A DNA stretch of 64,000 bases from Gilliamella apis (GTDB taxonomy: Bacteria; Pseudomonadota; Gammaproteobacteria; Enterobacterales; Orbaceae): assembly GCF_030758615.1 (NCBI RefSeq), contig NZ_CP132381.1, forward strand, positions 496,001 through 560,000. The letters are read 5' to 3'. Below, one piece after another: positions 33,895-50,053 of this stretch. The first letter of the stretch is position 1. The number at the start of each line of letters is the position of its first letter. A program made the position numbers and the translations under genes. The notes below the pieces were generated by a model that saw only the letters and a program-made list of their open reading frames with translations, had not been told where the DNA came from and ran no database searches.

Positions 33895-34827
33895 ATGCCT
33901 ATATGTATTCCTGATTCATTACCGGCAGTTGATGTTCTTCGAAATGAAAATGTATTTGTGATGACTTCAACGCGTGCTAATACTCAAGAAATTCGTCCAC
34001 TTAAGCTTCTTTTCTTAAATTTGATGCCGAAAAAAATAGAAACTGAAAATCAATTTTTGCGGTTACTTTCTAACTCATCTTTACAGGTGAATATTCAGTT
34101 ATTAAGAATAGATCAGCGTGAATCTAAAAATACGCCAATAGAACATTTGAATAGCTTTTATTGTGATTTTGATGATATTCGTGAACAGAATTTTGATGGA
34201 CTTATTATTACTGGAGCGCCATTAGGTAAAGTCGCTTTTTCAGATGTTGTGTATTGGCCTAAGTTAGCTGAAATTATTACTTGGGCGAAAGATCATGTAA
34301 CCTCAACCATGTTTGTTTGTTGGGCGGTGCAAGCGGCATTAAATGTCTTATATGATTTACCTAAATTCACCCGTTCACAAAAGTTATCCGGTGTTTATCA
34401 ACACCAAATCTTGCAACCAAATGCTATTTTAACCCGTGGTTTTGATGATACATTTTTAGCACCACATTCTCGTAATGCTGATTTTCCAATTGATAAAATT
34501 AAAAACTATACCGATTTAAATATTTTAGCTGAGTCAGATATAACTGGCCCATACTTAATGGCAACCGCTGATAAACGAATGGCGTTTGTTACTGGGCATC
34601 CAGAATATGATTCATTTACTTTGGCTAATGAGTATTATCGTGACTTGAAAGCAGGTATAAACCCTAAAATACCTTTTAATTACTTCCCAGAAAATAATCC
34701 TAATTTAACTCCGAAAGCAACATGGCGAAGTCATGCTTATTTACTATTTAGTAATTGGCTCAACTATTACGTTTATCAATTAACGCCATTTGATTTAACG
34801 ACTCGTAATTTGACAATTGATGATTAA
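33895..34827 (+). CDS. metA: Homoserine O-succinyltransferase
   Basis: First committed step of methionine synthesis. The catalytic Cys142 ([12 protein letters not shown]), His235 and Glu237 (TGHPEYD) are at E. coli numbering. Gly111 (GAPLG) is the residue associated with succinyl-CoA rather than acetyl-CoA use. I choose the ATG at 33895 ([15 protein letters not shown], 310 aa, E. coli 309), with AGGAG 8 nt upstream; the in-frame ATG at 33877 precedes that site. Tandem MetJ boxes upstream indicate repression by MetJ-SAM. Confidence 0.95.
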
Positions 34828-34835
34828 CTTTAATG

Positions 34836-34870
34836 ATAGATGGATTTATTAAATGAATAACTCCATCTAT
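34836..34870. terminator. Bidirectional terminator between metA and fucO
   Basis: ATAGATGGA/TCCATCTAT with an inner TTATT/AATAA helix, between convergent metA and fucO. Long stem; moderate T-rich tails on both strands. Confidence 0.55.
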
Positions 34871-34913
34871 TTGATAATTATTAAATATTGTTAATTATGT
34901 TAAGTTACTAAAA

Positions 34914-36065
34914 TTAAAAAACTGAGTGATATAGTTTTTCAATATCTGATATATTTGTTTCTCTTGGATTTCCTTGTGTACATACATCAGCATACGCTGC
35001 TTCGGCTAATGCTGTTATGTCTTCCTTCTTCACGCCAACCATATGTAAGTTTGTTGGAATTTTGACATCATTATTTAATTGGAAAACGGCATTCACGGCT
35101 GCATTTCGAGCATCTTCAATTGTCATATCTTCAGTATTTTTTATCCCCATTGCTTTGGCTATATGACGATATTTTTCACCTGTGTACGGTGCATTATATT
35201 GCATGATATGAGGAAGTAATATTGCATTAGCAACACCATGAGGAACATTATAAAAAGCACCTAATGGATGTGCCATACCATGAACTAAGCCGAGACCAAC
35301 ATTTGAGAATCCCATTCCAGCAATATATTGACCTAAAGCCATTTGTTCAACGCCATTGAGATCACCATTCACCGAATCGCGTAGTGAACGAGAGATAATT
35401 TCAATTGCTTTCAAATGAAACATATCACTCATCTCCCATGCACCTTTTGTGATATAGCCTTCTATTGCATGAGTCAGTGCATCAATCCCCGTTGCTGCTT
35501 TTAAACTGGCTGGCATACTAATCATCATATTAGGATCAACTAAAGTCAAAACAGGTATATCGTGAGGATCTACACAGACAAATTTTCTCTTATTTTCTTC
35601 ATCGGTAATAACATAATTGATCGTTACTTCTGCTGCTGTTCCCGATGTGGTTGGAATTGCAATGATTGGGATAGACGGTTTTTTGGTTTCCGCTAAACCT
35701 TCTAAACTACGAATATCAGAAAATTCAGGATTATTTATTACAATTCCAATCGCTTTAGCGGTATCTTGCGGTGAACCACCACCAATCGCTATTAAATAAT
35801 CTGCATTTGATTGCTTAAATATCTCTATTCCTTGTTTTACAATACTAATTGTTGGATTAGGCATAACTTCATCAAATATTTGATAATCTAATTCTGCCGA
35901 ATCAAGTAACTCAGTAACCTTAGTTGCAACTTTAAATTTAATCAGTTCTTTATCAGTAACAACTAAAGCTTTTTGATAGCCGCGTTTTTTTACTTCATCG
36001 ATAATATTATGAATCGAATTCACCCCAAAATATGCGGTTTGATTCAAAATCATTCTATGACTCAT
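34914..36065 (-). CDS. fucO: Lactaldehyde reductase (iron-dependent alcohol dehydrogenase)
   Basis: Reduces L-lactaldehyde to L-1,2-propanediol with NADH. Very close to E. coli FucO over all 383 aa: RMILNQTAYFG, DYLIAIGGGSPQDTAKAIGI, TTSGTAAEVTINYVITDEENKRKFVCVDPHDIP, DALTHAIEGYITKGAW, and the metal-site histidines in LVHGMAHPLGAFYNVPHGVANAILLPH. It ends the rhm operon, 18 bp after rhmA, and would dispose of the lactaldehyde that RhmA releases. In E. coli fucO is in the fucose regulon, so its place here is a functional re-grouping. The enzyme family also reduces glycolaldehyde. Confidence 0.93.
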   Translation of the reverse strand: MSHRMILNQTAYFGVNSIHNIIDEVKKRGYQKALVVTDKELIKFKVATKVTELLDSAELDYQIFDEVMPNPTISIVKQGIEIFKQSNADYLIAIGGGSPQDTAKAIGIVINNPEFSDIRSLEGLAETKKPSIPIIAIPTTSGTAAEVTINYVITDEENKRKFVCVDPHDIPVLTLVDPNMMISMPASLKAATGIDALTHAIEGYITKGAWEMSDMFHLKAIEIISRSLRDSVNGDLNGVEQMALGQYIAGMGFSNVGLGLVHGMAHPLGAFYNVPHGVANAILLPHIMQYNAPYTGEKYRHIAKAMGIKNTEDMTIEDARNAAVNAVFQLNNDVKIPTNLHMVGVKKEDITALAEAAYADVCTQGNPRETNISDIEKLYHSVF

Positions 36066-36083
36066 TTTTAACCTCTTTCTTTA

Positions 36084-36890
36084 TTAATATGAAACTGAAG
36101 ATGATTTATTGGGGCTTTTTAACTGTTTAAAGTGTTTTAATCTTTCATCAATAGCCTGCATATACAGCATTGTATCCACACCTACAGCAACGAAATTTGC
36201 TCCCCATGAGATACATTTTTGCGCCATTTCGATATCAACAGCTAAAAACCCAGCAGCTTTACCTAATTGCCTAATTCTTCTAATTGTTTTTTCAATTATT
36301 TTTTGTACGTCTGGATGCCCAGCATTATCTGGATAACCTAAGGATGCGGATAAATCTGCAGGGCCAATAAATACGCCATCTACTCCTTCGGTCATAACAA
36401 TTTCATCAAGATTTTCGAGTGCTTTTTTACTTTCAACTTGTACTAACAGACAGAGTGAATCATTGACTTGTTGCATGTACTTTTCAATTTTTCCCCAGCG
36501 GGCAGCTCTTGCTACACTAGCACCTACGCCACGGGTTCCTTCGGGTGGATAACGTGTCGCTGAAACTACAGCCTTTGCTTGTTCGCCTGTTTCAACCATT
36601 GGTATTAATAATGTCTGAGAACCAATATCTAAAATCTGTTTTATGTTAGCTTGACTGCCTTCTAAAGGGCGCACGACAGGATGACTGGCATATGGAGCGA
36701 TTGCTTGTAGCTGGGTGAGTAAGGTTTGTGCTGTATTTGGTGCATGTTCACCATCAAGTAGTAACCAATCATATTCTGAGGTTGCAGCAATTTCAGCCAT
36801 ATAAGATGTCGCTGAAGATAACCAAAGGCCAATTTGTAAATTTCCTTTGGTAATTTCTTGTTTAAATTTATTTTCCAATAGTTTTTTCAT
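36084..36890 (-). CDS. rhmA: 2-keto-3-deoxy-L-rhamnonate aldolase
   Basis: A class II (metal-dependent) HpcH/HpaI-family aldolase cleaving 2-keto-3-deoxy-L-rhamnonate to pyruvate and L-lactaldehyde. Nearly colinear with E. coli RhmA (YfaU): [71 protein letters not shown], and [20 protein letters not shown]. His47 of DGEH and the Glu/Asp metal ligands are present. Length 268 aa against 267. Fourth gene of the rhm operon. Confidence 0.94.
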
Positions 36891-36945
36891 TATGTTATCC
36901 CTAATGTATTAGGAGCTTATTGATAAAATCAATAAGCTCTGTTTG

Positions 36946-38211
36946 TTAACTATTTTTGTTAGTTTGTTTTAGCATGAATATAGTTATAGTGCCGATTATT
37001 GTTATCAGTGCTAAAGTTAGTAAGCCTGCTATATTGTTATTAAAAAGCGTTTCAGCTTTTACACGAATAATTGGTGCTAAAAAACCACCAAATGCACCAA
37101 ACATATTAATAAATCCTATGCCTGCTGCTAGGGCAGCTCCAGATAAAAGGTTAGTTGGTATAGTCCAAAAAACAGGTTGTACCGCAATAAAACCAATCGC
37201 CGCAAAACAAAGGGCAATAATTGCAATACTAGGACTTGCAAGTGCAGAAATTCCAATACCTAGACCTGCTACCAATAATGTTATAGCGGCGATATTTCTT
37301 CTTTCTCCAACTTTGTCTGAATATCGAGGAATAAAATAAGTACCGAATAATGCTGCAATCCAAGGAATTGCCGCTACGAGTGATGCTTTAAAACCAACCG
37401 TTGTTCCCATTAATTGAGCTACTTGTGTTGGTAAAAAGAAAATTAGCCCGTAAACACTAATTTGAATTATCATGTAAATAATGGCTAGATGCCAAACAGT
37501 GACATTACTGATAGCATCGATTATTTTAGATGTAGTTTTTACACTCTCTTCTGATGATAATTTTTCATGTAATGCTTGTTTTTCATTTTCATTTAAAAAT
37601 CTAGCATTACTGATGTTGTCATCAAGGTAAATAAAAGTGACAATACCAGCTATAACAGCAAGAATACCTTCAATAATAAACATCCAGTACCAACCTGGGT
37701 GATCTAAAAAGCCATGCATTTCTAATAAAGCACCAGATAGCGGTGAGCCAAATGTTAGCGCTAAAGGTGCTCCCATATAAAATAACCCCATTATTCCTGC
37801 GCGATGCTTTTGTGGGAACCATTGCGAAGTTAAATAGATCATACCTGGGAAGAAACCGGCTTCCGCCATACCAAGTAGTACACGAACAGTTAAAAATTTC
37901 CATTCAGAATCAGCATAAGCCATTGCAGCGGATAATAATCCCCATACTAAAGTTGTACCGCCAATCCAGTAACGAGCACCAAATTTACGCATTAATAAAT
38001 TGGCTGGTGCGCCTAAAAAAGCATACGCTACGAAGAAAATACCGGCTCCAAGTGCAAATGCTTCATTACTGAGCCCTGTATCTAATTGATATGCTGATTT
38101 GGCAAAGCCAATATTTGCGCGGTCTAAAAATGCTAATACGTATAGTATTAACATGAATGGAACAAGTCTTAAACGGGTTTTGCTTACCGCTTTTTCGAGA
38201 ATATTAGACAT
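36946..38211 (-). CDS. rhmT: L-rhamnonate transporter (MFS)
   Basis: A twelve-segment major facilitator of the anion:cation symporter family, the proposed rhamnonate importer. Close to E. coli RhmT (YfaV): PFMLILYVLAFLDRANIGFAKSAYQLDTGLSNEA, GMIYLTSQWFPQKHRAGIMGLFYMGAPLAL, and IPWIAALFGTYFIPRYSDKVGERRN. I take the ATG at 38211 (421 aa), which has a GAGAGGGGG ribosome site 6 nt upstream; an upstream in-frame start lacks support. It lies between rhmD and rhmA; a hairpin precedes it. Confidence 0.92.
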   Translation of the reverse strand: MSNILEKAVSKTRLRLVPFMLILYVLAFLDRANIGFAKSAYQLDTGLSNEAFALGAGIFFVAYAFLGAPANLLMRKFGARYWIGGTTLVWGLLSAAMAYADSEWKFLTVRVLLGMAEAGFFPGMIYLTSQWFPQKHRAGIMGLFYMGAPLALTFGSPLSGALLEMHGFLDHPGWYWMFIIEGILAVIAGIVTFIYLDDNISNARFLNENEKQALHEKLSSEESVKTTSKIIDAISNVTVWHLAIIYMIIQISVYGLIFFLPTQVAQLMGTTVGFKASLVAAIPWIAALFGTYFIPRYSDKVGERRNIAAITLLVAGLGIGISALASPSIAIIALCFAAIGFIAVQPVFWTIPTNLLSGAALAAGIGFINMFGAFGGFLAPIIRVKAETLFNNNIAGLLTLALITIIGTITIFMLKQTNKNS

Positions 38212-38291
38212 AAAAATCCCCCTCTCCATAAAAATTACAGAGATATAAATGATGTTCATATGAAGAAAATAATTTTATTGAATCTAAAATC

Positions 38292-38318
38292 GCAGTTTTA
38301 AGTTCCTTTTAAAACTGC
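38292..38318 (-). terminator. Attenuator-like hairpin between rhmD and rhmT
   Basis: A perfect 10-bp inverted repeat GCAGTTTTAA/TTAAAACTGC with a 7-nt loop in the rhmD-rhmT gap, followed on the minus strand by GATTTTAG. It may lower transporter expression relative to the dehydratase, or protect an mRNA end. Confidence 0.45.
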
Positions 38319-38355
38319 AATAAATCAATAAATAAGCTTATTATTCCTCATATAA

Positions 38356-39561
38356 TTAATGAGAATAAGGACGAATTAATTTACATTCACGATTTAATTC
38401 AACACCAAATCCTGGTTTATCAAGTACTGATTTATGAATTCTTCCATTTACAGGAACGGGTTCATTAATCAATATTGGATCAAATTGCGGACGGAGTGTT
38501 GAACAATCAGGACTCGTCATTAAAAACTCACTAAATGGGGTATTTGTGAATGTAATTACTGCATGGTGAGAATAAACGGATGAACCATGAGGTACGACCA
38601 GTTGTCCTTTTGATTTCGCAATTGCAGCAATTTCAAGTAATGTGGTTAAGCCTCCACACCAACCAACATCTGGTTGCATGATATCAATTCCAGTTTCAGA
38701 TAATGTTCTAAATGATTGAATTGTTCCATGATGTTCACCAGATGTGACCATCATTCCTGGCGGTGCATTGCGTTTTAACTCTCGGTATCCTTCATATTGT
38801 TGCGGAGGTAAACATTCTTCAATCCATTTTAAGTTATAAGGCGCACAAGCATAAGCAAGTTTTGTGGCATAATTTACGTCTTGACTCATCCAGCAATCAA
38901 GCATTAGCCAAAAATCAGGTCCACACTTTTCGCGCATGTTGGCAACCATTTCCGCATCTTTTTTGATGCCTTGATCTCCATCATGTGGTCCCCAATGTGT
39001 AGGCATCTTGCCACCAATAAAGCCCATCTCTTTTGCCAAATCAGGGCGAGCACCTGTTGCATAAAATTGAATTTCATCACGGACTGCACCACCTAATAAT
39101 TTATATACAGGTAGATCAGTCACTTTACCAAATAGATCCCAAAGGGCTAAATCAACACATGATATCGTGTTCATTACTAAACCACCTGAACCAGAATAAT
39201 ACATAGTTGCATTCATCATTTGGTCGTGAATTAGTTTGATATCAGAAACACATTTTCCTTCAATAAATCTATTTAGATGTTTTTCAACAATAAAACATCC
39301 CATTTCTCCGCCTGTTGATACGGCAAATCCAATTTGTCCATTATCAGCTTCAACTTCGACAATAAGTGTTCCAAGGACGTTGATACCAAAAGATTGACGT
39401 GATTGTTCATAGTCTTTATACTTGCTCATTGGCGTGGCGATATGGTCGTCGATCCAGTGGTGGCCGCCCTGATCGTGATAGTCTGCCCCGCCACTACCTT
39501 TCTCGGCGGTTGCTCCTCCCATAAAATAAGCTCTAACTTCTTTTATTTTTGGTAGCTTCAT
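38356..39561 (-). CDS. rhmD: L-rhamnonate dehydratase
   Basis: An enolase-superfamily enzyme dehydrating L-rhamnonate to 2-keto-3-deoxy-L-rhamnonate. Extremely similar to E. coli RhmD throughout: [62 protein letters not shown] (metal ligand), [12 protein letters not shown], and [25 protein letters not shown] with the catalytic His. Length 401 aa. GGAG lies 8 nt before the ATG. Codons for about residues 14-44 (39431-39520) are GC-rich, about 64% GC, unlike the AT-rich rest of the gene, which suggests a recombined segment. Confidence 0.96.
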
Positions 39562-39589
39562 TTAATTTCTCCTTTAAAAGTTACAAAAA

Positions 39590-40348
39590 TTATTCGTACA
39601 TAAGACAACCCAATTCTTTTGAGATATCTTTTGCACATTCCTTGATTTTAATCGTAATTTCCGGTAATACATGGTCGGTTATTTGAAATGTTGTTCCTAC
39701 AGCCGATATTGCCGCAGCAATATTATTTTGTGCGTTAAATATAGGTGCCGCTATGCATCTTATATTGATATAATCTTCTTCATTATCAAAACTACAACCT
39801 TGTTGACGAATCTTGGCCAATTCAGTATGTAATGAACTAATGGACATAATTGTATTTGCGGTTTTTTGTTCGAAAGAAAGTTGGTTAACGATTTCAGATA
39901 TTTTTTCGCTAGGTTGGAAAGCTAATAAGCATTTGCCGACGCCAGAACGATAAAGCGATACTTGTTTTCCTACATAAGAACGAACACTGATTGTGCTATG
40001 TGATTCACATTTCAAAATATAATAAGCGGTTTTGTTATCTAAAATTCCTAAATGAGTTAACAGCCCGGTATTATTGGTTAATCTGGCAAGATGTTTTTTG
40101 GCTATTTCTCTAATATCAAAACAATTTGAAGCAAGCTCACCTAACTCAACTAATTTGATCCATAAAAAATAATCACCATTCTGATCTTGTTTAATAAATT
40201 GATATGACTTTAGTTCTTCTAGTAAAAGATAAGCAGAACTTTTAGGTATTTGTAGGCCATTGATTATTTCTGCGGCACTGCATCTACCTTTAGATGAGAT
40301 AAAGTTAAGTATTTTGATTGTTCTTTGTAAAGCGGGTACTTTAGACAT
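39590..40348 (-). CDS. rhmR: IclR-family regulator of the rhamnonate operon
   Basis: A winged-helix IclR regulator, 252 aa: N-terminal HTH (ALQRTIKILNFISSKGRCSAAEIINGLQIPKSSAYLLLEEL), then the GAF-like effector domain (SVRSYVGKQVSLYRSGVGKCLLAF; CSFDNEEDYINIRCIAAPIFN). First gene of the rhm block, 28 bp before rhmD, corresponding to E. coli rhmR (yfaX). AGGA lies 5 nt before the ATG and overlaps an operator-like repeat. Several palindromic repeats upstream suggest autoregulation of the whole operon; the effector is probably a rhamnonate-derived acid (inferred). Confidence 0.88.
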   Translation of the reverse strand: MSKVPALQRTIKILNFISSKGRCSAAEIINGLQIPKSSAYLLLEELKSYQFIKQDQNGDYFLWIKLVELGELASNCFDIREIAKKHLARLTNNTGLLTHLGILDNKTAYYILKCESHSTISVRSYVGKQVSLYRSGVGKCLLAFQPSEKISEIVNQLSFEQKTANTIMSISSLHTELAKIRQQGCSFDNEEDYINIRCIAAPIFNAQNNIAAAISAVGTTFQITDHVLPEITIKIKECAKDISKELGCLMYE

Positions 40349-40351
40349 ACA

Positions 40352-40387
40352 TTCCTATATATTGTACTTTTATCCTGTATATTGGAT
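40352..40387. promoter_or_regulatory. IclR-type operators next to rhmR
   Basis: TTCCTATATATTGTAC (40352-40367) and ATCCTGTATATTGGAT (40372-40387) fit the palindromic pattern WTCC-N4-TATTGGAW, the second with matching ATCC/GGAT arms. They cover the rhmR translation start region, as expected for autorepression. Confidence 0.5.
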
Positions 40388-40439
40388 GAAGTAGATTGTA
40401 CTTTCATCAAATATTGGTACAACTATTTAATCGCATTAT

Positions 40440-40455
40440 TGTGAACTTGATCATA
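40440..40455. promoter_or_regulatory. CRP-like site upstream of the rhm operon
   Basis: TGTGAACTTGATCATA matches TGTGA-N6-TCACA at nine of ten positions. Located 92 bp before rhmR, next to the IclR-type palindromes. Consistent with catabolite control; not demonstrated. Confidence 0.4.
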
Positions 40456-40480
40456 AAAAATTTATAATTTACAATTGGTT

Positions 40481-40526
40481 ATTCCTTTATATTGGAATTT
40501 TTGGGGTTGTTCCAATATAAAGGAAT
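40481..40526. promoter_or_regulatory. Perfect 17-bp inverted repeat, probable RhmR operator pair
   Basis: ATTCCTTTATATTGGAA (40481-40497) is followed after 12 bp by its exact reverse complement (40510-40526). Each arm is itself a near palindrome TTCC-N8-GGAA, the same pattern as the sites beside rhmR. IclR regulators bind such symmetric sites, often in pairs. It would also form a strong hairpin if transcribed. Confidence 0.55.
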
Positions 40527-40659
40527 TTAAAATAGTCTAATTTATAAGATGTCTTAAATTTGAATGTTGTGATTTAAATTGAAATGATGAAATAGTGTGG
40601 TTTTAAATTAGAAACGATTTAGTAGTATAAATAAGATAACATGAAAATATTAGTTAGGT

Positions 40660-40689
40660 GGTATAGACTCCTCAATTATTTTTACAAAT
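40660..40689. repeat. 30-bp direct repeat, copy 1
   Basis: Begins GGTATAGACTCCTCAATTAT and ends TTTACAAAT. It matches the copy at 40881-40910 at 29 of 30 positions. Its complement contains AATTGAGGA, recalling the dispersed TTGAGG motif. Confidence 0.65.
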
Positions 40690-40880
40690 AAACTTTATCA
40701 ATCAAGCAAAGATAATAATTATCTGAAAAAATAATTAACCAATAAGAATATTGATTGATAAAGATTAATACATACCATACTATTGGCAAAAACACTGGTT
40801 AAAGGTTAATGTTATTATATCTTTACTCATTTTTGCACGTTTTTATGAGTAGTTTACTCATACTTAAAACTTAATAACAT

Positions 40881-40910
40881 GGTATAGAATCCTCAATTAT
40901 TTTTACAAAT
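40881..40910. repeat. 30-bp direct repeat, copy 2
   Basis: Begins GGTATAGAATCCTCAATTAT; differs from copy 1 only at the ninth base. The two copies are 221 bp apart and bracket an inverted-repeat segment. Confidence 0.65.
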
Positions 40911-40962
40911 CAAATTCAGTAACTCGAACCTAAGTAATTATATTTCTATGCGAAATATGTTT

Positions 40963-41739
40963 TTATTGTTTTTCTGCTGCTATTAAGAACATTGGCGTTG
41001 AATGATAGTTAATTTGTTCAATTTTATCCCAGACTATCTTTGATATATCGTTTTCAATATGAATATTTTTATAACCAATTGATTGTAAAATCTTCTTATC
41101 CCATTCAGGTCTAATTTCTTTACTCAATGGTAGTAATTTGGCGATTCGTTCCATTTCTTGCGTATTGGTTTGTCGATAATGATCTTCAATGCCATAATTC
41201 ATGGTATTTTGTCTATCCTGCATATATTGTGAATAAAGATCTTTATTAAAAAGAAATAGGTACCAGTTGGCATCAAAATTAAGTAATTTACCTTTAGTAC
41301 TTAACACTCTAAACCATTCTTGATATGCTAAAGTTGGATTACTCAAATTCCACGTAACATTACGCAATATAATTAAATCAAAACTATTGTCTTCGAATGG
41401 TAAGCAATGAACATCGGATAAAACAAAATTAACCTTTACTTGGTATTGTATTGCATTTTTTTTTGCTTGATTTATCATTTCTTCAGTAGCATCTACAGCA
41501 GTTACTTCATGTCCGGCTAAAGCTAACGTGATAGCTAAAAAGCCGGGCCCAGCGCCTATATCTAATACACGTAGTTTTTCTTTTTGTGGTGCATGATGCA
41601 TAATTAACTTTTGCCAGATAATTCTTTTTTCAGTTGCTAGTTCATCTTGATTGGTTTGGCTGTACTCTTTTGCTCGGTTTGCCCAATAAATGATAAGATC
41701 CCTTAAAATATTATCATCAATATTATTCGCTAATATCAC
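40963..41739 (-). CDS. Class I SAM-dependent methyltransferase, substrate unknown
   Basis: A 258-aa methyltransferase with the Rossmann motifs VLDIGAGPGFLAITLALAGHEVTAVDAT (motifs I-II), DVHCLPFEDNSFDLIILRNVTWNL (motif IV) and VLSTKGKLLNFDANWYLFLF. It starts with GTG at 41739. It lies between the two sugar-acid cassettes but shares no obvious pathway with them; gaps of 614 and 235 bp on either side suggest its own transcript. The enzyme looks like a UbiE-type small-molecule methyltransferase; the substrate cannot be named. Confidence 0.7.
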   Translation of the reverse strand: MILANNIDDNILRDLIIYWANRAKEYSQTNQDELATEKRIIWQKLIMHHAPQKEKLRVLDIGAGPGFLAITLALAGHEVTAVDATEEMINQAKKNAIQYQVKVNFVLSDVHCLPFEDNSFDLIILRNVTWNLSNPTLAYQEWFRVLSTKGKLLNFDANWYLFLFNKDLYSQYMQDRQNTMNYGIEDHYRQTNTQEMERIAKLLPLSKEIRPEWDKKILQSIGYKNIHIENDISKIVWDKIEQINYHSTPMFLIAAEKQ

Positions 41740-41974
41740 TTAATCTTCTCGCTTTTTATTTTGAATTTTTAATTCTGAGGTAGGTGGTATATAGTTATTA
41801 ATATTACTTAATAGCATAATACTCTTTACATTACTCTATAGACAAGTTATTTAGGATTGATATTTGGAGCATTATTGAATGATCATTAAGAATGAACAGA
41901 TAGATTATATTTATTTTTAATAAATGATTTAAAGTGCCACTAATGTTGTTAGATGGCACTTTAGATTTAATTTA

Positions 41975-43687
41975 TTATTCTATATATGCCCCAGCCATTA
42001 ATGATTTAGCTCTTTCTGTATATTGTTTAAATACACCTTTTCGTTTGGAATAATCTGGCGGTGTCCATTTTTCTTTCCGTTTAGCAAATATTTCAGCAAT
42101 TTCTTGTGCTGATTTGCTCTCGCCATTTATGCCAATGATATTGAGTTTTCTTGCATGCACATCAATTTCGACAATATCATTATCTTCAACAAGTGCGATT
42201 GGACCACCATCGGCAGCTTCTGGTGATACATGTCCTATGCATGGTCCATGTGTTGCCCCAGAAAAACGGCCATCAGTAACTAATGCTACACTGCCATTAA
42301 GTCGTTTATCAAAGACAATCGCATCAGTAGTCATTAACATTTCTGGGGCACCTGAACCTTTTGGTCCTTCATAACGAATGAAAATAACATCACCAGGATT
42401 AACTTTATTATTAATAATGGCCTCTTGAGCAGCTTCTTCAGAATTATAAACTTTGGCTGGTCCAGTATGTTTATGCATATCAGGACTACAAGCTGTATAT
42501 TTTATAACTGCACCATCTGGAGCTATATTACCTTTTAAAACAGCGATAGATCCCATTTTTTCTTTGTTAGGATTTCGAATTAAATCATTTCGTTCTAATT
42601 TGTAATTATGCAAATAGCCTAAATTACGGTCAAAGAAACCAGTTTGTTGCATCATTTCCAAATTATCACCTAAAGACTGCCCAGTAACTGTCATTACATC
42701 AAGATCGAGTAAATCCTTAATCATCCATTGAACCATTGGAATACCGCCGGCAAACCATAATAGTTCTGTTACGTATTTTCCACTTGGTTGTACATTGGTA
42801 AGGTATGGTACGGTATTATTAATGCGATCAAATACATCTGCGGTTAATTCAAATCCTGATGCATGTGCAATTGCTGGTAGGTGAATAAGCGCATTTGTAC
42901 TACCACTGATAGCAGCGTGTACTTTAATGGCATTTTCAAATGCTGCTGGTGTGAGTATTTTTCGTGATGTTATTCCTTCTTTGGCTAGATACATGGCATG
43001 ATGTCCAGCAGATCTGGCCATCCTACGAATTTCGGACATTGTCGATGGTGCTAATGCACTTCCAGGTAATGCTAGGCCAAGTGCTTCTGACATACATTGC
43101 ATTGTACTTGCGGTACCCATGAATTGACATGCTCCAGCGGTAGGGCAACCACACCTTTGTAAGGTTTGAATCTGTCTTATATCAATTTCACCTTTTTTAT
43201 ATTGTGCTGTGGCACCACCTAAATCAGATGTTGTCATATTAGGTGCCGGGCGCATTGAACCACCTGGCACATGAACTAATGGTATATCAAGTCGTGCTGC
43301 TGCAATTAAGTGAGCAGGTACTGATTTATCACAGCTAGAAATAAGTACGGCTGCATCATATGGTATGACAGAGCCATGGATTTCAACCATATTAGCAATC
43401 GCTTCCCTTGAGGCTAATATATAATTCATGCCATCATGACCTTGTCCCCAGCCATCACAAATATCTGTAACATGACTACGTACTGAACGACCGCCTCGTT
43501 CATGCACGCCAAGAACAACTTCATAACCTAAACTATCAAGATGATAACTACCAGGGTGACTTTCGCCAAAACAGTCATCAATCAGGACTTGAGGTTTTTC
43601 CGTATCTTCAACGGTATAATTCATTCCCATTCGTAATGCATCTAATTGTGACCATAGATCCCTGGCAAATTTACATTTTTGTTGCAT
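41975..43687 (-). CDS. IlvD/Edd-family aldonate dehydratase (YjhG/YagF-related)
   Basis: An iron-sulfur dehydratase of about 570 aa, predicted to convert a sugar acid to its 2-keto-3-deoxy form. Cluster cysteines appear in DDCFGESHPGSY, ISSCDKSVPAHLIAA and RCGCPTAGACQFMGTASTMQ; SALAPSTMSEIRR, AISGSTNALIHLPAIAHASG and DGRFSGATHGPCIGHVSPEA are family landmarks. The middle section resembles E. coli YjhG/YagF (D-xylonate dehydratase) more than IlvD, but the protein is shorter (YjhG 655 aa). I take the ATG at 43687, with GGAGG 6 nt upstream. Its neighbours, an MFS transporter and a YagE/YjhH-like aldolase, point to a pentonate such as D-xylonate or L-arabinonate; exact substrate unknown. Confidence 0.82.
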   Translation of the reverse strand: MQQKCKFARDLWSQLDALRMGMNYTVEDTEKPQVLIDDCFGESHPGSYHLDSLGYEVVLGVHERGGRSVRSHVTDICDGWGQGHDGMNYILASREAIANMVEIHGSVIPYDAAVLISSCDKSVPAHLIAAARLDIPLVHVPGGSMRPAPNMTTSDLGGATAQYKKGEIDIRQIQTLQRCGCPTAGACQFMGTASTMQCMSEALGLALPGSALAPSTMSEIRRMARSAGHHAMYLAKEGITSRKILTPAAFENAIKVHAAISGSTNALIHLPAIAHASGFELTADVFDRINNTVPYLTNVQPSGKYVTELLWFAGGIPMVQWMIKDLLDLDVMTVTGQSLGDNLEMMQQTGFFDRNLGYLHNYKLERNDLIRNPNKEKMGSIAVLKGNIAPDGAVIKYTACSPDMHKHTGPAKVYNSEEAAQEAIINNKVNPGDVIFIRYEGPKGSGAPEMLMTTDAIVFDKRLNGSVALVTDGRFSGATHGPCIGHVSPEAADGGPIALVEDNDIVEIDVHARKLNIIGINGESKSAQEIAEIFAKRKEKWTPPDYSKRKGVFKQYTERAKSLMAGAYIE

Positions 43688-43716
43688 AATATCCTCCAAT
43701 GCATTTTTAAATTTTA

Positions 43717-44985
43717 TTATTTTGTTGGTTTTGCTGTTATTGCTGGTAAAGTGAACAATAAAATGATTGCAATGATTAATGCGCCAACCAAGGTATATAA
43801 TCCTGCATTTTTACTTACTGTAACGGTTAATAAACCAACAAGGTACGGTCCAATAAATCCTCCTAAATTGCCTAGAGCATTGATTGTTCCTCGGACGCCA
43901 CCTAAAACATTTGATGGGAATAATAATGGTGGTAAAGTCCAAAATGGCCCTGCGTATGCTTGTAGGAAAAAGCCACATAGAACCATCATTCCATATGCAA
44001 GCCATGTGTTGTTTTCTAATAATATTGATAAAGTTAAACAGATAGCGAAACCAATCATTGGAATTGCGGTATATAATCTACGATTCATGGTTTGGTCACA
44101 TAATTTAGCAATATAATATTGCCCAAAAATGCAAAGAATGTATGGTGCTGCAGTTAAAAGGCCGACAATAGACATACCACTTCCAGTTAATTGTTTAATT
44201 AACATTGGCATCCAAAGTGCAAAACCATAGAAACCAATTTGGAAGAAGAAATAGATAGCAACAAGTTTCCATAAGTTGATACTGCTTAATACTGTTTTTA
44301 CACTCGCTTTATCATCTAATTTTATAAGTGCTTTATCTTCTTCAAACTGTTGATTTAACCAATTTAATTCTCTTTGATCGAGCCATTTAGCTTGATGAGG
44401 GTAGTCAGAAACTAGAGGCATCCAAACGAAGAGCAATGCTAAAGATATAATTCCTTCAATTATAAACATTTCTCTCCATCCCCAAGCTTCAATTAACCAG
44501 CCAGATAGAGGACCTGTAATAATAGAAGCAGCAGCTAAATTCATTTGGAAAAATGCAATTGCTCTCGCTCTTTCATGGTTAGGGAACCAATGACCAATGA
44601 GTGCTAAAATAGCTGGATAAACGCCACCTTCAGCGACACCGAGGATAAAGCGTATAATAAGTAGTTGAATAGGATCTCGAACAAACCCTGTGATGGCAGC
44701 AAAGCCCCCCCAAACAACAATTGTCCATGCAATAAATTTTTTTGCGCTATAGCGTTCAGCAATTTGACCGCCAGGTATTTGTAAAAAGATATAACCAATA
44801 AAAAATATCCCTGCGACGAGCCCAGCAAAGGATGCGGTCATGCCCAAATCTTTATTCATTCCTCCGGCAATACCAATAGCTATATTGGTTCTGTCCATAT
44901 ATGCCACTATATAGACAAGAATAGTGGCCGGAATTATATGTTTCCAACGACCTTTGGGAATTGTTTTATCTTCAATATTATTCAT
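43717..44985 (-). CDS. MFS sugar-acid transporter (anion:cation symporter family)
   Basis: A 422-aa twelve-segment transporter of the GudP/DgoT/ExuT group: IPATILVYIVAYMDRTNIAIGIAGGMNKDLG, IPGGQIAERYSAKKFIAW, GVAEGGVYPAILALIGHWFPNHERARAIAFFQMN, PLSGWLIEAWGWREMFIIEG. Family members import aldonates, aldarates or uronates with protons. It sits between the dehydratase (29 bp) and the aldolase (14 bp) on the same strand, so it probably imports the acid those enzymes degrade. GGAG precedes the ATG. Related to RhmT at 37 kb in fold but clearly a different subfamily. Confidence 0.85.
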   Translation of the reverse strand: MNNIEDKTIPKGRWKHIIPATILVYIVAYMDRTNIAIGIAGGMNKDLGMTASFAGLVAGIFFIGYIFLQIPGGQIAERYSAKKFIAWTIVVWGGFAAITGFVRDPIQLLIIRFILGVAEGGVYPAILALIGHWFPNHERARAIAFFQMNLAAASIITGPLSGWLIEAWGWREMFIIEGIISLALLFVWMPLVSDYPHQAKWLDQRELNWLNQQFEEDKALIKLDDKASVKTVLSSINLWKLVAIYFFFQIGFYGFALWMPMLIKQLTGSGMSIVGLLTAAPYILCIFGQYYIAKLCDQTMNRRLYTAIPMIGFAICLTLSILLENNTWLAYGMMVLCGFFLQAYAGPFWTLPPLLFPSNVLGGVRGTINALGNLGGFIGPYLVGLLTVTVSKNAGLYTLVGALIIAIILLFTLPAITAKPTK

Positions 44986-44999
44986 ATGGATGTCTCCAA

Positions 45000-45917
45000 T
45001 TATTTATTTTTAATAGGTATTTGAGCTGACTTTAAAACTTGAAGTAATAAGTCTTTTTTATGTTTTGGTAGCTTTTCTACTGGAGCTAAAACTTCCGTCG
45101 AAATATCGACGCCAGAAAGTTTTATTGCTTGTTTGATTACGCCAAAGAAAGGTGATTCAATGGCATAGACAGGCATTAATTTTGCAAGTTGACGTTGTAA
45201 TTTGAATGCTTTTTCATAATCTTTTTTAATGAAAGCTTTATAAATTCCTTTAGTAATTTTGGGTGCAAAATTAAAGGTTGCAGGAATACCACCGTGGCCG
45301 CCAAGAATAAGGGTGTCTAACATATATTCATCAAAGCCACTGAAAATGATAAAATCTGGACGGAAGGCGTGAACTCTGTTGATGACTTCTCGGGTATGGC
45401 TGATATTATCAATAGTATCTTTCAAACCAATAATATTTGGCAAATCCTTTGCCAGTCTTGTAATAACATCAATACCTATATCTTGACCGGTTAATGCCGG
45501 AAAATTGTAAAGTAGAACAGGGATATCGATATTTTCAGCAACAGTTTTATAATGGTTATAAATCGCATCACTATTTAATAAAGCATAATAAGGATTAACA
45601 ACTAAAACTGCATCAGCACCAATTTGGGCTGCATGTTTGCCATATTGAATCGTCTCAGCAGTGCTTGGGCTTGATATGCCAAGCATAACTGGAATACGTT
45701 TATTGATATAATTTACTGCGAATTCAGCAACTTCATATCGCAACTTAGGCGGCATATGGCAGAACTCACCACCACTACCTAGAATCAAAACACCATCAGC
45801 TTCGTTATCGATTAGATGATCTAATAATTTGCCCATTCCTTTTTTATCTAGTTCCCCTTTTTTATTAACGATAGTAGGGACTGGAGGGAATATACCTTTA
45901 AATTTTTCTAAATTCAT
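45000..45917 (-). CDS. 2-keto-3-deoxy-aldonate aldolase, DapA family (YagE/YjhH-like)
   Basis: A class I Schiff-base aldolase, 305 aa. The family core is GVLILGSGGEFCHM, GISSPSTAETIQYGKHAAQIGADAVLVVNPYY, LLYNFPALTGQDI with the catalytic Tyr, and IIGLKDTIDNISHTRE with the Schiff-base Lys. These match E. coli YjhH and YagE (2-keto-3-deoxy-gluconate/xylonate aldolases) better than DapA, and the LKDT lysine context is typical. The expected reaction is cleavage of a 2-keto-3-deoxy acid to pyruvate plus an aldehyde (glycolaldehyde if the substrate is a pentonate). First gene of the minus-strand operon, GGAG 7 nt before the ATG; a divergent alcohol dehydrogenase begins 219 bp away. Confidence 0.85.
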   Translation of the reverse strand: MNLEKFKGIFPPVPTIVNKKGELDKKGMGKLLDHLIDNEADGVLILGSGGEFCHMPPKLRYEVAEFAVNYINKRIPVMLGISSPSTAETIQYGKHAAQIGADAVLVVNPYYALLNSDAIYNHYKTVAENIDIPVLLYNFPALTGQDIGIDVITRLAKDLPNIIGLKDTIDNISHTREVINRVHAFRPDFIIFSGFDEYMLDTLILGGHGGIPATFNFAPKITKGIYKAFIKKDYEKAFKLQRQLAKLMPVYAIESPFFGVIKQAIKLSGVDISTEVLAPVEKLPKHKKDLLLQVLKSAQIPIKNK

Positions 45918-46022
45918 TTTTTCTCCTTGTTCATAATGCGGAACATTATTTCTTACACGGGAACAGATTATTGGTAAAAAAATTTAGAATTGCAATGTAT
46001 TAATTCAAAAGAAAATTAATTT

Positions 46023-46038
46023 TGTGATCATCCTCTCA
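46023..46038. promoter_or_regulatory. CRP-like site in the divergent aldolase/dehydrogenase promoter
   Basis: TGTGATCATCCTCTCA fits TGTGA-N6-TCACA at nine of ten positions. A TATAAT at 46077-46082 puts it near -59 of the alcohol dehydrogenase promoter, compatible with class I activation. No convincing -35 is present, which also suits an activator-dependent promoter. Confidence 0.4.
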
Positions 46039-46136
46039 TTGTCGAAAATATTTTTTTTGGTAATTAATTTTTTCCGTATAATGAAATTTAGTTCTTTTTG
46101 TGGGAATTTTTGAATATTATTAATTAAGAGGTAAAT

Positions 46137-47279
46137 ATGATTTATTACATTCCGCCGGTTAATTTATTAGGTAAAGGATGCTTATCTGAGTTAGGTGTAC
46201 CAGTTAAAAAACTTAATTGTCAGAAAGCATTTGTTGTTAGTGATAAGTTTTTAGTGGGCAATGGTACTGTAGATAGAGTAGTAGATATCTTAGCAAAAGA
46301 GGGCATTGAATCGGTTATTTTTTACGATGTAAAACCGAATCCAACCGTTGCTAATGTTGAAAATGCACTAAAATTATGTCAAGAATCTAACTGTGATTTT
46401 ATTGTCTCTATTGGTGGTGGATCACCTCAGGACTGTGGTAAAGCAGTTGCTGTGTTAGCGACAAATGGCGGTAAAATTACTGACTATGAAGGGATGCATA
46501 AAAGTAAACATAAATGCTTACCAATTGTGGCAATAGCAACAACAGCCGGTACCTCTGCTGAGGTGACGATCAACTATGTTATTACCGATGAAAGTAGACA
46601 TGTAAAAATGATTATGGTTGATCCGAATACATTGGCGTCAATAACGGTTAGTGATCCTGATTTAATGATCTCAAAACCAGCCAATTTAACTGCGGCAACA
46701 GGTATGGATGCATTAACTCATGCTATTGAAGCTGTAGTGGCTAAAGGCGCGATGGATGTTACTGATTCAACCGCATTATATGCGATTGGTCAAACCTTTA
46801 AATATTTAGCTCGAGCGGTTAAAAATGGTAACGATATCGAAGCAAGAGAACAGATGAGTTATGCCTGTTTTTTAAATGGGATTGCATTTAGTAATGCCGG
46901 TCTGGGTAATGTTCATGCTATGGCTCATCAACTAGGTGGTCTTTATGATTTACCTCATGGGGTATGTAATGCAATGTTATTATCGGTAGTTGAAGAAGAA
47001 AATGCTAAACATGCGCCAGAAAAATTTAGAGTTATCGCAGAAACAATCGGATTAGAGACTAAAAATAAAACGGATCAAGAGTGTGTTGATTATGTGATAA
47101 AACGAATTAAAGATTTGGCACAAGAGGTAGGTATTCCTAAATCTTTAAAAGAAATTGGTGTTGATAATCCAGATTTTGAATTATTGGCTGAAAATTCGAT
47201 GAAAGATGCTTGTGCCGGAGCAAATCCAGTATTTTTTGATAAACAAAAATTGATTGAGTTATTTAAGAAAATAGCTTAA
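46137..47279 (+). CDS. Iron-dependent alcohol dehydrogenase (FucO/YiaY-like)
   Basis: An NAD-linked group III alcohol dehydrogenase, 380 aa. Nucleotide motif FIVSIGGGSPQDCGKAVA, then TTAGTSAEVTINYVITDE, GMDALTHAIEAVVAKGAMD and the metal histidines in NVHAMAHQLGGLYDLPHGVCNAMLL. It is about as related to FucO as YiaY is. It is divergent from the dehydratase-transporter-aldolase operon across a shared promoter region, and next to the IclR regulator. Likely role: reduction of the aldehyde made by the aldolase (for example glycolaldehyde to ethylene glycol), which is inferred from context. AGAGG precedes the ATG. Confidence 0.85.
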   Translation: MIYYIPPVNLLGKGCLSELGVPVKKLNCQKAFVVSDKFLVGNGTVDRVVDILAKEGIESVIFYDVKPNPTVANVENALKLCQESNCDFIVSIGGGSPQDCGKAVAVLATNGGKITDYEGMHKSKHKCLPIVAIATTAGTSAEVTINYVITDESRHVKMIMVDPNTLASITVSDPDLMISKPANLTAATGMDALTHAIEAVVAKGAMDVTDSTALYAIGQTFKYLARAVKNGNDIEAREQMSYACFLNGIAFSNAGLGNVHAMAHQLGGLYDLPHGVCNAMLLSVVEEENAKHAPEKFRVIAETIGLETKNKTDQECVDYVIKRIKDLAQEVGIPKSLKEIGVDNPDFELLAENSMKDACAGANPVFFDKQKLIELFKKIA

Positions 47280-47303
47280 CAGCTAATTTATCCAATGAGT
47301 TAA

Positions 47304-47336
47304 AATAATATTGAATCATAGTGATTCAATATTATT
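47304..47336. terminator. Bidirectional terminator between the dehydrogenase and iclR genes
   Basis: A perfect 15-bp stem AATAATATTGAATCA/TGATTCAATATTATT with a TAG loop, between two convergent genes; the stem touches the iclR stop codon. Confidence 0.65.
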
Positions 47337-48085
47337 TAAAACTTATCCGTCAATTTTTGGCATGCATCACGTACTAATTGTGAATATTTATCAATTTTAT
47401 CCACAGGTAGTTGAAAAAGAACACCCGAAATACTAATAGCGGCGATGGGTTCGTTATTTTTATTGAAGATTGGTGCAGCGATACAATGAACACCTTGAAC
47501 ATCTTCCTGATTATCATAAGCCCAACCTTGAGACCTAATTTTTGCAAGCTCTTTTTTTAACTGTTTCTTGCTGGTTATTGTTGTGTCGGTATATTTGATT
47601 AATTTGTCTTCGGGAATAAGTTGATCAATTTTTTCGTCTGGTAACCAAGCTATTAATGCTTTACCAATACCAGAGCTATGTAAAGGCAATTTTTTACCAA
47701 TCCAAGTACGAATACCAATAGCCTGATCATTTTCAATTTTAGCAATGTAAACAGAATAAAGACCGTCAAGAACACCTAAATGGCAGGTCAAGTTGGTTTT
47801 ATCTCTCAGTTTAATCATTAATGGTTCGGCTATTTTAGTGATATCAAACTGTTCTAAGGATTTATCTCCCCATTCATGTAATTTTAACCCAAGATAATAC
47901 TTATTTTGATCTTGTCGCAAAATACCATGCATAACTAAGGCATTTAATAGTGTTGATGTACTGCTTTTAGGTAAATTGAGATCCTGAAATATTTGACTAA
48001 AAGTAGCCCCTCGGTGATTATCTAAATAATCACAAATACGGACAATTTTATCTAATGCTGGTACAAGTGTCTGAATATTTGGCAT
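47336..48085 (-). CDS. IclR-family transcriptional regulator (YagI/YjhI-like)
   Basis: A 249-aa IclR regulator: HTH at the N-terminus (LVPALDKIVRICDYLDNHRGATFSQIFQDLNLPKSSTSTLLNAL) and an effector domain (GIRTWIGKKLPLHSSGIGKALIAWLPDEKI; GWAYDNQEDVQGVHCIAAPIFN). It closes the second sugar-acid cassette, much as yagI and yjhI accompany yagEFG and yjhFGH in E. coli. Probably represses the divergent dehydratase operon and dehydrogenase. It is a distant paralogue of RhmR at 40 kb. Confidence 0.82.
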   Translation of the reverse strand: MPNIQTLVPALDKIVRICDYLDNHRGATFSQIFQDLNLPKSSTSTLLNALVMHGILRQDQNKYYLGLKLHEWGDKSLEQFDITKIAEPLMIKLRDKTNLTCHLGVLDGLYSVYIAKIENDQAIGIRTWIGKKLPLHSSGIGKALIAWLPDEKIDQLIPEDKLIKYTDTTITSKKQLKKELAKIRSQGWAYDNQEDVQGVHCIAAPIFNKNNEPIAAISISGVLFQLPVDKIDKYSQLVRDACQKLTDKF

Positions 48086-48341
48086 GAAATATCCTAATAT
48101 AATAATGTAAGAAATATATTTATTTTATTGATACTAATTGTTTAGAAAAACATTTTTTGAACGGTTTAGTGTATTAAGTGTCTTATCTTTAACATTATAT
48201 TCAAGTTACTTGATAAGGAAAAGAAAATAACTTTTATTATTTCCCTGTTTAGTGTATTTAAATCGATAAATCCTTATCTTGCATCATGTTAGGCATAGTT
48301 ATATTATGAGTAGCAATGCTATATTATTTAAGGAATGAGTT

Positions 48342-49991
48342 ATGTTAAAATCAATAGATCCAACCTCTACATCTTCTTGGAAATCCCTTCAAGCTAGTTA
48401 TCAAAAACATCATAATAAAACTATAGCCGAAATATTAAAAGACGAGCCCAAGCGCGTCGAAAAACTGAGTATTCCGTTTGAGGATGAGTTTTTGGTTGAT
48501 TTTTCAAAAAACCGTTTAACGCAAGAAACATTAGAAATTCTTTATCAGCTTGTGGATGAGTGTGATTTAGGTGGCGCAATTAAAGCGATGTATAGTGGTG
48601 AAAAAATTAATCGCACAGAAGATCGAGCCGTGTTACACGTTGCACTTCGTAATGTATCTAATACTCCAATTTATGTTGATGGCAAAAATGTCATGGATGA
48701 TGTCAATGCAGTGCTTGCTAAGATGGAGTCCTTTAGTAAAAAAGTGATTAGCGGTGAATGGAAAGGTTATACCGGCAAGGCTATCACCGATGTTGTTAAT
48801 ATCGGCATTGGTGGTTCAGATTTAGGCCCTCACATGATTACTGAAGCTCTTCGACCTTATAAAAACCATTTAACGATGCACTTTGTATCTAATGTTGATG
48901 GCACTCATATTGTAGAAGCATTAAAAGATCTTAATCCAGAAACAACACTCTTTTTAGTTGCGTCGAAAACTTTTACAACTCAAGAAACGATGACTAATGC
49001 TCAAACTGCCCGTCAATGGTTACTTGATGCAGCTAAAGATGATAAAGCAGTAGCACTGCATTTTGTTGCATTATCAACTAATACTAAAGAAGTGGAAAAG
49101 TTTGGTATTGATACTGCTAATATGTTTGAATTTTGGGATTGGGTTGGTGGTCGCTATTCGTCTTGGTCGGCAATTGGTTTATCAATCGTTCTTTCCATTG
49201 GCTTTGAAAACTTTAAACAGTTTTTAGCAGGTGGCCATGCAATGGATAAACACTTCCAAACAGCGCCGGTTGAGAAAAATATTCCAACATTACTTGCGTT
49301 AATTGGTCTTTGGTACAATAACTTCTGTGGCGCAGAAACTGAAGCAATTTTACCTTATGATCAATATATGCATCGTTTTGCTGCTTATTTCCAACAAGGT
49401 AATATGGAATCAAATGGTAAAAGCGTTGATCGTAATGGTAATAAAACGACTTATACTACTGGACCTATTATTTGGGGTGAGCCTGGTACTAATGGCCAAC
49501 ATGCCTTCTATCAATTGATTCATCAAGGTACTAAACTGATTCCTTGTGATTTTATTGCACCAGCAATTAGCCATAATCCGGTTGGAGATCATCATCCTAA
49601 ATTACTTTCAAATTTCTTTGCACAAACTGAAGCTTTAGCTTTTGGTAAAACCGAACAACAGGTAGAACAAGAATTCCTTGCGGCTGGTAAAAGCCTTGAT
49701 GAAGTTAAATCTATTATTCCTTTTAAAGTTTTTGCTGGTAATAAGCCAACCAACTCTATTTTAGTCAAAAAAATCACACCTTATGCATTAGGTGCATTAG
49801 TTGCTATGTATGAACACAAAATCTTCACGCAAGGTGTTATTCTTAATATCTTTAGTTTTGATCAATGGGGGGTTGAACTCGGTAAACAGCTAGCTGGTCG
49901 TATTTTACCTGAATTAGCCGATGATAAACCTGTAAGTTCTCATGATGATTCAACTAACAACTTAATCAATCAATACAAGAAATGGCGTTAG
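48342..49991 (+). CDS. pgi: Glucose-6-phosphate isomerase
   Basis: Interconverts glucose-6-phosphate and fructose-6-phosphate. Family motifs: [64 protein letters not shown], and [17 protein letters not shown] with the catalytic Lys. Length 549 aa equals E. coli Pgi. AAGGAA precedes the ATG. Single gene with a strong terminator, convergent with the PTS operon. Confidence 0.97.
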
Positions 49992-50012
49992 AGCGGGTTC
50001 TACCGTAGATAG

Positions 50013-50045
50013 AAAAAACCTTCAGTTTTAACTGAAGGTTTTTTT
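50013..50045. terminator. Bidirectional terminator between pgi and crr
   Basis: AAAAAACCTTCAGT/ACTGAAGGTTTTTTT with a 4-nt loop: a classic rho-independent terminator with U-tracts on both strands. Confidence 0.9.
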
Positions 50046-50053
50046 ATAGATGA

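Follow-up and report, generated by a model that had tools for sequence, protein, structure and literature searches.

Based on gene families, their relationships and the layout of the genes, we propose that two neighbouring gene sets of a Gilliamella apis genome probably break down plant sugar acids, i.e. rhamnonate and, most likely, xylonate, and convert the released aldehydes to alcohols. The window analysed here is a stretch of 64,000 nucleotides (NCBI RefSeq assembly GCF_030758615.1, contig NZ_CP132381.1, positions 496,001 to 560,000), taken from a 2.71-Mb single-contig genome that is 99.99% complete, and the two sets, cassette 1 (34914-40348) and cassette 2 (41975-48085), are located in a block flanked by pgi and metA. 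We consider it likely that this block is a sugar-acid scavenging island of the Gilliamella bee symbiont, in which aldonates would yield pyruvate and a reduced alcohol. The pgi-metA site is a variable island, and its front ends appear to have been exchanged by recombination at a joint inside the aldolase gene. The proposal is further supported by conserved dyads and by a genome whose PF00171 proteins are restricted to AdhE and ProA.

All ten genes named in the original prediction are open reading frames (Table 1). Cassette 1, rhmR-rhmD-rhmT-rhmA-fucO, was confirmed as first described; it occupies the minus strand with gaps of 28, 96, 55 and 18 bp, and RhmD (803 bits versus 393), RhmA (484 versus 441) and FucO (686 versus 537) pass their NCBIfam equivalog cut-offs. 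For cassette 2 the predicted gene families stand, but not the single five-part cassette, as the genes form three transcription units: ald2-mfs2-dht on the minus strand, with gaps of 14 and 17 bp, adh2 on the plus strand, divergent from ald2 across 219 bp, and iclR2, again on the minus strand and tail to tail with adh2. The analysis supports the view that both cassettes follow the same pathway scheme in parallel, with different dehydratase and aldolase families.

A variable site with an exchangeable front end

In 22 of 35 same-genus genomes pgi and metA are found on one contig within 20 kb. They are 154-1536 bp apart in 11 of these 22, with no open reading frame of at least 90 amino acids in between in the ten that were read, and in another ten they enclose a fixed back end of iclR2, adh2 and the aldolase gene. 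The ten core loci sampled (the window, L051-L057, L084 and L086) contain an IlvD-type front end in seven cases, five of them together with the rhm cassette, and a GarD-type front end in three. In two of the GarD-type loci, G017 (also G. apis, L054) and G013 (L056), the front end includes a group-22 nickel-pincer isomerase, an RhmT-like major facilitator superfamily (MFS) transporter, LarC, LarE and LarB, and in the third, G003 (L084), another MFS transporter is present, without Lar genes up to metA.

The blastn identity between the window and all three GarD-type loci stops at 45078, i.e. at codon 280 of the 305 codons of ald2, and resumes at 41774 in L054 and L056, just outside the methyltransferase-domain gene that separates the cassettes, and only at metA in L084. 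These breakpoints delimit an exchangeable front-end module, formed by the last 25 codons of ald2, mfs2 and dht. L054 and the window share 97% identity across metA with its flank and 95% across 45078-50200, pointing to an exchange that was probably recent and local. The comparison of neighbourhoods in related genomes, with a conserved back end and two front-end types at pgi-metA, thereby supports the island that had been predicted, and the exchangeable front end and its nickel-pincer variant go beyond that prediction.

Several side observations concern the same site. The isomerase and the LarC, LarE and LarB genes (L054:12506-18106 and L056:14077-19697) are found beside the GarD-type dehydratase gene or genes, of which G. 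apis has one copy and L056 two in tandem, with 93% and 64% identity to that of G. apis. Elsewhere, the group-22 isomerase was detected in one of the 369 genomes of the class, close to the end of a contig, and in the control genome of Haloferax volcanii. The methyltransferase-domain gene, the eleventh of the block (40963-41739), is present in seven of the ten core loci and absent from L055, L084 and L086. In G010, pgi and metA (L079, G010:C45:59000-70500) are separated by a 7.8-kb insert of small genes encoding, among others, a DUF6717 protein and a 249-residue protein with the polymorphic-toxin domain Ntox50, so that the site may here accommodate an interbacterial toxin/immunity cassette.

Dehydratase and aldolase of cassette 2

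The dht and ald2 products remain below every NCBIfam cut-off, and dht reaches neither the IlvD equivalog TIGR00110 (498 bits, cut-off 618) nor the YjhG/YagF family TIGR03432 (342 bits, cut-off 808). A tree of 21 proteins, with Escherichia coli Edd as the root and five proteins taken as dihydroxy-acid dehydratases (DHADs) among them, nevertheless places dht on the YagF/YjhG side (support 0.968), apart from the five DHADs; together with P0004, dht is sister to proteins from Salmonella (P0016), Leminorella and Budviciaceae (support 1.0 for the clade). The trees of this work are quick FastTree runs with few references. In agreement, the CDG and CQF motifs are shared by dht and YagF/YjhG and missing from the five DHADs, while CDK is found in all 21 proteins.

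It is highly improbable that dht encodes a branched-chain dihydroxy-acid dehydratase (IlvD) and reached this site by chance. The best NCBIfam names and the names of its relatives do read dihydroxy-acid dehydratase, and at the PC[N] position, whose cysteine is a ligand in [2Fe-2S]-type enzymes, PG is found in dht; of the five DHADs, three have PC there, and the other two, E. coli IlvD and the Bacillus protein, have PG. We reject the assignment, despite these names and the PG motif, on the NCBIfam score, the tree and the CDG and CQF motifs, the CDG cysteine being found in none of the five DHADs; moreover, dht shares its operon with an MFS transporter gene and an aldolase gene of the aldonate type, and in 37 of 44 family genomes a protein of this kind was not detected at E 1e-60. 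According to excerpts of PMC11316719, the SADHT class of IlvD/Edd sugar-acid dehydratases is characterised by a C-terminal histidine, which is found neither in dht, which ends in AGAYIE, nor in E. coli YagF and YjhG.

D-xylonate is most likely the substrate of dht, as judged from its grouping with YagF/YjhG, its 75% identity to Salmonella P0016, and the loss of growth on D-xylonate that is described upon deletion of the Salmonella xyn locus, the closest genetically tested relative (PMC12445098, in the part available). The identity is 77% to the Leminorella protein and about 36% to the E. coli yag/yjh dehydratases, and the dht DNA has no match in the E. coli genomes. The listed TTG start of dht is probably replaced by an ATG four codons further in, at 43687, to which the relatives point. 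Relatives of dht occur in 44 plasmid records, always with less than 60% identity, and two of these neighbourhoods provide no substrate clue except for a gluconate symporter beside one. The SEN1432-1436 hexonate cluster was considered and is a different system. The ald2 product is 41% identical to both YjhH and YagE; it has a 100% match in an uncultured Gilliamella metagenome-assembled genome, all seven matches of at least 86% belong to Gilliamella, and Leminorella follows with 62%.

The alcohol dehydrogenase and its linkage

The adh2 product is 40% identical to FucO, misses the lactaldehyde-reductase cut-offs (423 versus 523 and 386 versus 537 bits) and is placed in a separate clade of the tree, and it was not filed as FucO. 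It is found at 93-100% identity in ten of 44 family genomes, in all ten beside ald2 and iclR2. Outside Gilliamella, its relatives reach 78-89% among the 120 listed, the best named ones being from Fusobacterium and Clostridia (74-78%), which hints at a cassette assembled from more than one source. It is quite unlikely that adh2 is an independent dehydrogenase that merely shares the intergenic region and acts on ethanol, methanol or other diols. Its best PDB relatives are indeed other alcohol dehydrogenases (alcohol dehydrogenase 2, an NAD methanol dehydrogenase and 1,3-propanediol oxidoreductases), and such reactions are reversible; however, co-location is complete, also where the front end has been swapped, dyad pairs of the same form are present at both promoters, and no AldA-type dehydrogenase is available to complete an oxidative route.

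Candidate operators

The shared intergenic region contains two tandem pairs of TTC-N8-GAA dyads, one before ald2 and one before adh2, each with a spacing of 20 bp. Both pairs are retained in nine of nine regions (the window and eight loci, L057 being excluded because it duplicates the window), other front ends included, with at most one mismatch per dyad. Two such pairs arise by chance with a probability of 0.00045 (20,000 regions simulated with the dinucleotide make-up of the window region), for a pattern that was chosen after looking at the sequence. A single related site within 219 bp is expected by chance with a probability of 0.136, and the paired spacing is the stronger test. Upstream of iclR2 no dyad of this form is present. 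The binding consensus of the related regulators XynR and YjhI is not characterised, as stated in excerpts of PMC13279387.

Upstream of rhmR, two TTCC-N8-GGAA dyads forming an inverted repeat are candidate RhmR operators. They are the only exact occurrences in the window, and an alignment of four of the five rhm loci shows both of them conserved. With mismatches, the rhm pattern is not clearly above shuffled sequences (4 versus 2.35). For a 16-mer operator pattern that had been derived from the two sites themselves, exact matches prove nothing, and three matches at up to two mismatches were obtained where 1.17 are expected. Scans for sigma-70 promoters (72 versus 66.4 in shuffles) and terminators (9 versus 7.8) were near shuffle level, and no Rfam match at gathering score was obtained in 34700-48400.

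Cassette 1

RhmD shares 91.5% identity with its E. coli counterpart, and the metal-binding Asp and His residues of FucO are conserved in fucO1. The predicted link of fucO to the cassette is somewhat overstated, as it holds in four of the five rhm loci found. A recent duplication from the rhamnose operon is not favoured, since fucO1, 77% identical to the FucO of that operon, does not fall within the clade formed by the remaining FucO proteins of Orbaceae (support 0.874 for this clade and 0.777 for the joining node). The operon in question, rhaB-rhaA-rhaD-rhaT-fucO-rhaM (L072, C1:2007000-2023000), has its own FucO.

Table 1 Features of the sugar-acid block; positions refer to the window.
Feature	Position	Strand	Assignment	Basis
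fucO1	34914..36065	-	lactaldehyde reductase FucO, terminal gene of cassette 1	NCBIfam NF007911; 68% to E. coli FucO
rhmA	36084..36890	-	2-keto-3-deoxy-L-rhamnonate aldolase	NF007521; PDB YfaU 2vws, E 1e-129
rhmT	36946..38259	-	MFS transporter, presumed L-rhamnonate carrier	MFS_1; position in gene order as E. coli yfaV
rhmD	38356..39561	-	L-rhamnonate dehydratase, enolase superfamily	NF011968; PDB 2i5q, E 2e-266
rhmR	39590..40348	-	IclR-family regulator at the head of cassette 1	IclR_C and HTH_IclR; 54% to E. coli YfaX
rhmR dyads	40482-40497, 40510-40525	.	candidate RhmR operators, inverted repeat	TTCC-N8-GGAA, two copies
front-end module	41775..45077	.	exchangeable module	blastn breakpoints
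dht	41975..43699	-	putative aldonate dehydratase of the IlvD/Edd family, XynB-like	PF00920, PF24877; 75% to Salmonella P0016; YagF/YjhG group
mfs2	43717..44985	-	MFS transporter, presumed aldonate carrier	MFS_1; 81% to Leminorella neighbour
ald2	45000..45917	-	YagE/YjhH-type aldolase of the DHDPS family, first in operon	PF00701; PDB YagE, E 4e-75
ald2 dyads	45930-45943, 45950-45963	.	candidate operator	tandem TTC-N8-GAA
adh2 dyads	46072-46085, 46092-46105	.	candidate operator	tandem; first exact, second with one mismatch
adh2	46137..47279	+	iron-type alcohol dehydrogenase, presumed glycolaldehyde reductase	PF00465, PF25137
iclR2	47336..48085	-	IclR-family regulator, XynR-like	adjoins adh2-ald2 in 10/10 core loci

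Fate of the aldehyde

Three aldehyde-releasing pathways were identified in the genome, i.e. the two cassettes and the rhamnose operon, and each is accompanied by a reductase. Two PF00171 proteins are encoded, AdhE and ProA, and hence no AldA-type dehydrogenase of this family, a search that did not extend to oxidation by other families, and no bacterial microcompartment (BMC) shell gene was matched. Classical full-length aldehyde dehydrogenases (E <1e-100) were detected in five of 44 family genomes, five of the 44 being less than 90% complete, and in one of 35 same-genus genomes (G011). As neither an AldA-type dehydrogenase nor a BMC shell was found, reduction is the expected fate of the aldehyde, in line with what had been predicted. 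The conversion of xylonate to pyruvate and glycolaldehyde yields no NADH, and reduction of the latter uses one, which can come from the oxidation of pyruvate to acetate or from a co-metabolised hexose. With reduction as the expected fate, each aldonate would supply pyruvate and a sink for one NADH, and the idea of an electron sink thus gains support.

Alternatively, the reductases could serve detoxification only, without a net redox benefit, which we regard as rather unlikely. Uncontrolled xyn expression lowers the fitness of Salmonella, for which the authors hold aldehyde accumulation or redox imbalance likely responsible (excerpts of PMC12445098). Detoxification is, however, compatible with an electron sink, as without an oxidative PF00171 route reductant would be consumed anyway. 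As a tentative extension, we put forward the possibility that ethylene glycol or propanediol, formed by a fixed reductive back end with front ends swapped at the aldolase joint, is released in the bee gut as an obligatory electron sink.

Proposed mechanism

We propose the following mechanism. In cassette 1, L-rhamnonate would be converted to pyruvate and L-lactaldehyde, and the latter then to propanediol. In cassette 2, the aldonate, most likely D-xylonate, would be imported by mfs2 and dehydrated by dht, a predicted Fe-S dehydratase. The resulting 2-keto-3-deoxy-D-pentonate would be split by ald2 into pyruvate and glycolaldehyde, which adh2 may reduce to ethylene glycol, and iclR2 is presumed to control both divergent units via the paired candidate operators. 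The back end (iclR2, adh2 and most of ald2) appears to be fixed in ten Gilliamella genomes, with front ends swapped by recombination. All four D-pentonates converge on one 2-keto-3-deoxy-D-pentonate by loss of the C2 and C3 stereochemistry, and different front ends could therefore feed the same back end. The front end may consist of an Fe-S dehydratase or, alternatively, of a nickel-pincer C2-epimerase and a GarD/UxaA-type dehydratase, as for instance in the conversion of D-ribonate to D-arabinonate prior to dehydration.

The same convergence is also compatible with cassette 2 acting on another acid, i.e. a 6-deoxy-aldonate (yielding lactaldehyde), another D-pentonate or L-arabinonate, with ald2 and adh2 being broad and the dehydratase setting the substrate. 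We consider this unlikely, although it is in line with the occurrence of the same Gilliamella aldolase gene with different front ends and with the 64% identity to RhmT of the MFS transporter in the G. apis GarD-type front end. Furthermore, in Pleomorphomonas carboxyditropha (L059:10001-13585) a YagE-type aldolase, 54% identical to ald2, precedes RhmD (86%) and RhmT (73%), so that the substrate cannot be read from the family of the aldolase. The similarity of dht to the Salmonella protein and the requirement for the Salmonella locus in D-xylonate growth speak against such a different acid. As a side observation, no RhmA match was found in 20 kb of the Pleomorphomonas locus, and its aldolase is possibly a non-orthologous 2-keto-3-deoxy-L-rhamnonate aldolase.

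Several points, the Pleomorphomonas arrangement among them, weigh against D-xylonate as the substrate and against the island as proposed. Substrates, products, operator function and redox role are predictions from the genes, and Salmonella P0016 was equated with SL1344_3498 by name and organism rather than letter by letter. By locus number the Salmonella order is aldolase-dehydratase-MFS (excerpts of PMC12445098), whereas the Gilliamella order is aldolase-MFS-dehydratase, and no IclR match is present in the 21-kb Leminorella stretch. Regarding the aldehyde, the dehydrogenase search was confined to PF00171, and other iron-type alcohol dehydrogenases of the genome (a GldA-type one, one of 393 residues, AdhE and the FucO of the rhamnose operon) could reduce aldehydes, too. 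Finally, in the fifth rhm locus, G027, no fucO is detectable between rhmA and metA, and another FucO-like gene is found elsewhere in that genome.

If D-xylonate and L-rhamnonate are indeed used as proposed, Gilliamella in the bee gut is predicted to employ aldonates as electron acceptors and to release ethylene glycol and 1,2-propanediol. A function is thereby suggested for a dehydrogenase gene in aldonate loci. The site furthermore represents a natural example of modular front-end exchange, one variant of which would give the nickel-pincer isomerase group a role as aldonate epimerase. In the literature collection searched no paper pairing Gilliamella with rhamnonate was found, and none of the matches listed reports an enzyme, binding or growth result for the cassette locus.

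Comparison with known systems

The isomerase of the G. apis front end outside the window, accompanied by LarB, LarC and LarE, belongs to the LarA-superfamily nickel-pincer isomerases (NCBIfam group 22; excerpts of PMC7583248), and a term search of the available parts of PMC7583248 and PMC11770544 found no substrate for this group. Cassette 1 has the same gene order as E. coli rhmRDTA (yfaXWVU), with fucO of K-12 located elsewhere, in the fuc region. Cassette 2 resembles E. coli yagEFG/xynR and yjhIHG, which combine a D-xylonate dehydratase, an aldolase, a transporter and an IclR regulator (excerpts of PMC13279387). Unlike cassette 2, the E. coli stretches read contain no alcohol dehydrogenase. 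The original prediction that the E. coli reductases are not linked to the acid pathways thus holds for the K-12 stretches, but such linkage is not unique to Gilliamella, as indicated by the Salmonella and Leminorella loci below. In Enterobacter cloacae, the yjh operon converts xylonate to pyruvate and glycolaldehyde, from which ethylene glycol is formed in vivo, with the difference that the reductase, YqhD, is encoded outside the operon and that glycolate is also formed, for which the aldehyde dehydrogenase BetB is named (PMC7158088, in the part available).

In Leminorella grimontii, mfs (81%), dht (77%) and the aldolase gene (62%) form one run, with a GldA-type dehydrogenase gene divergent beside it. 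The Salmonella Typhimurium xynABC/xynR locus (SL1344_3497-3500) comprises an IclR-type repressor, an aldolase, a dihydroxy-acid dehydratase and an MFS transporter, and SL1344_3496, a putative glycerol dehydrogenase, is co-regulated with it, a link to sugar acids that the authors could not determine (excerpts of PMC12445098). Thus, an IlvD/Edd-type dehydratase, a DHDPS-type aldolase, an MFS transporter, an IclR regulator and a dehydrogenase are shared by Salmonella and Gilliamella, and organism and site differ, as does the dehydrogenase, which is a glycerol dehydrogenase by name in the former and FucO/AdhB-like (adh2) in the latter. A dehydratase-aldolase pathway of one kind has hence been combined with different dehydrogenase subfamilies in the two lineages.

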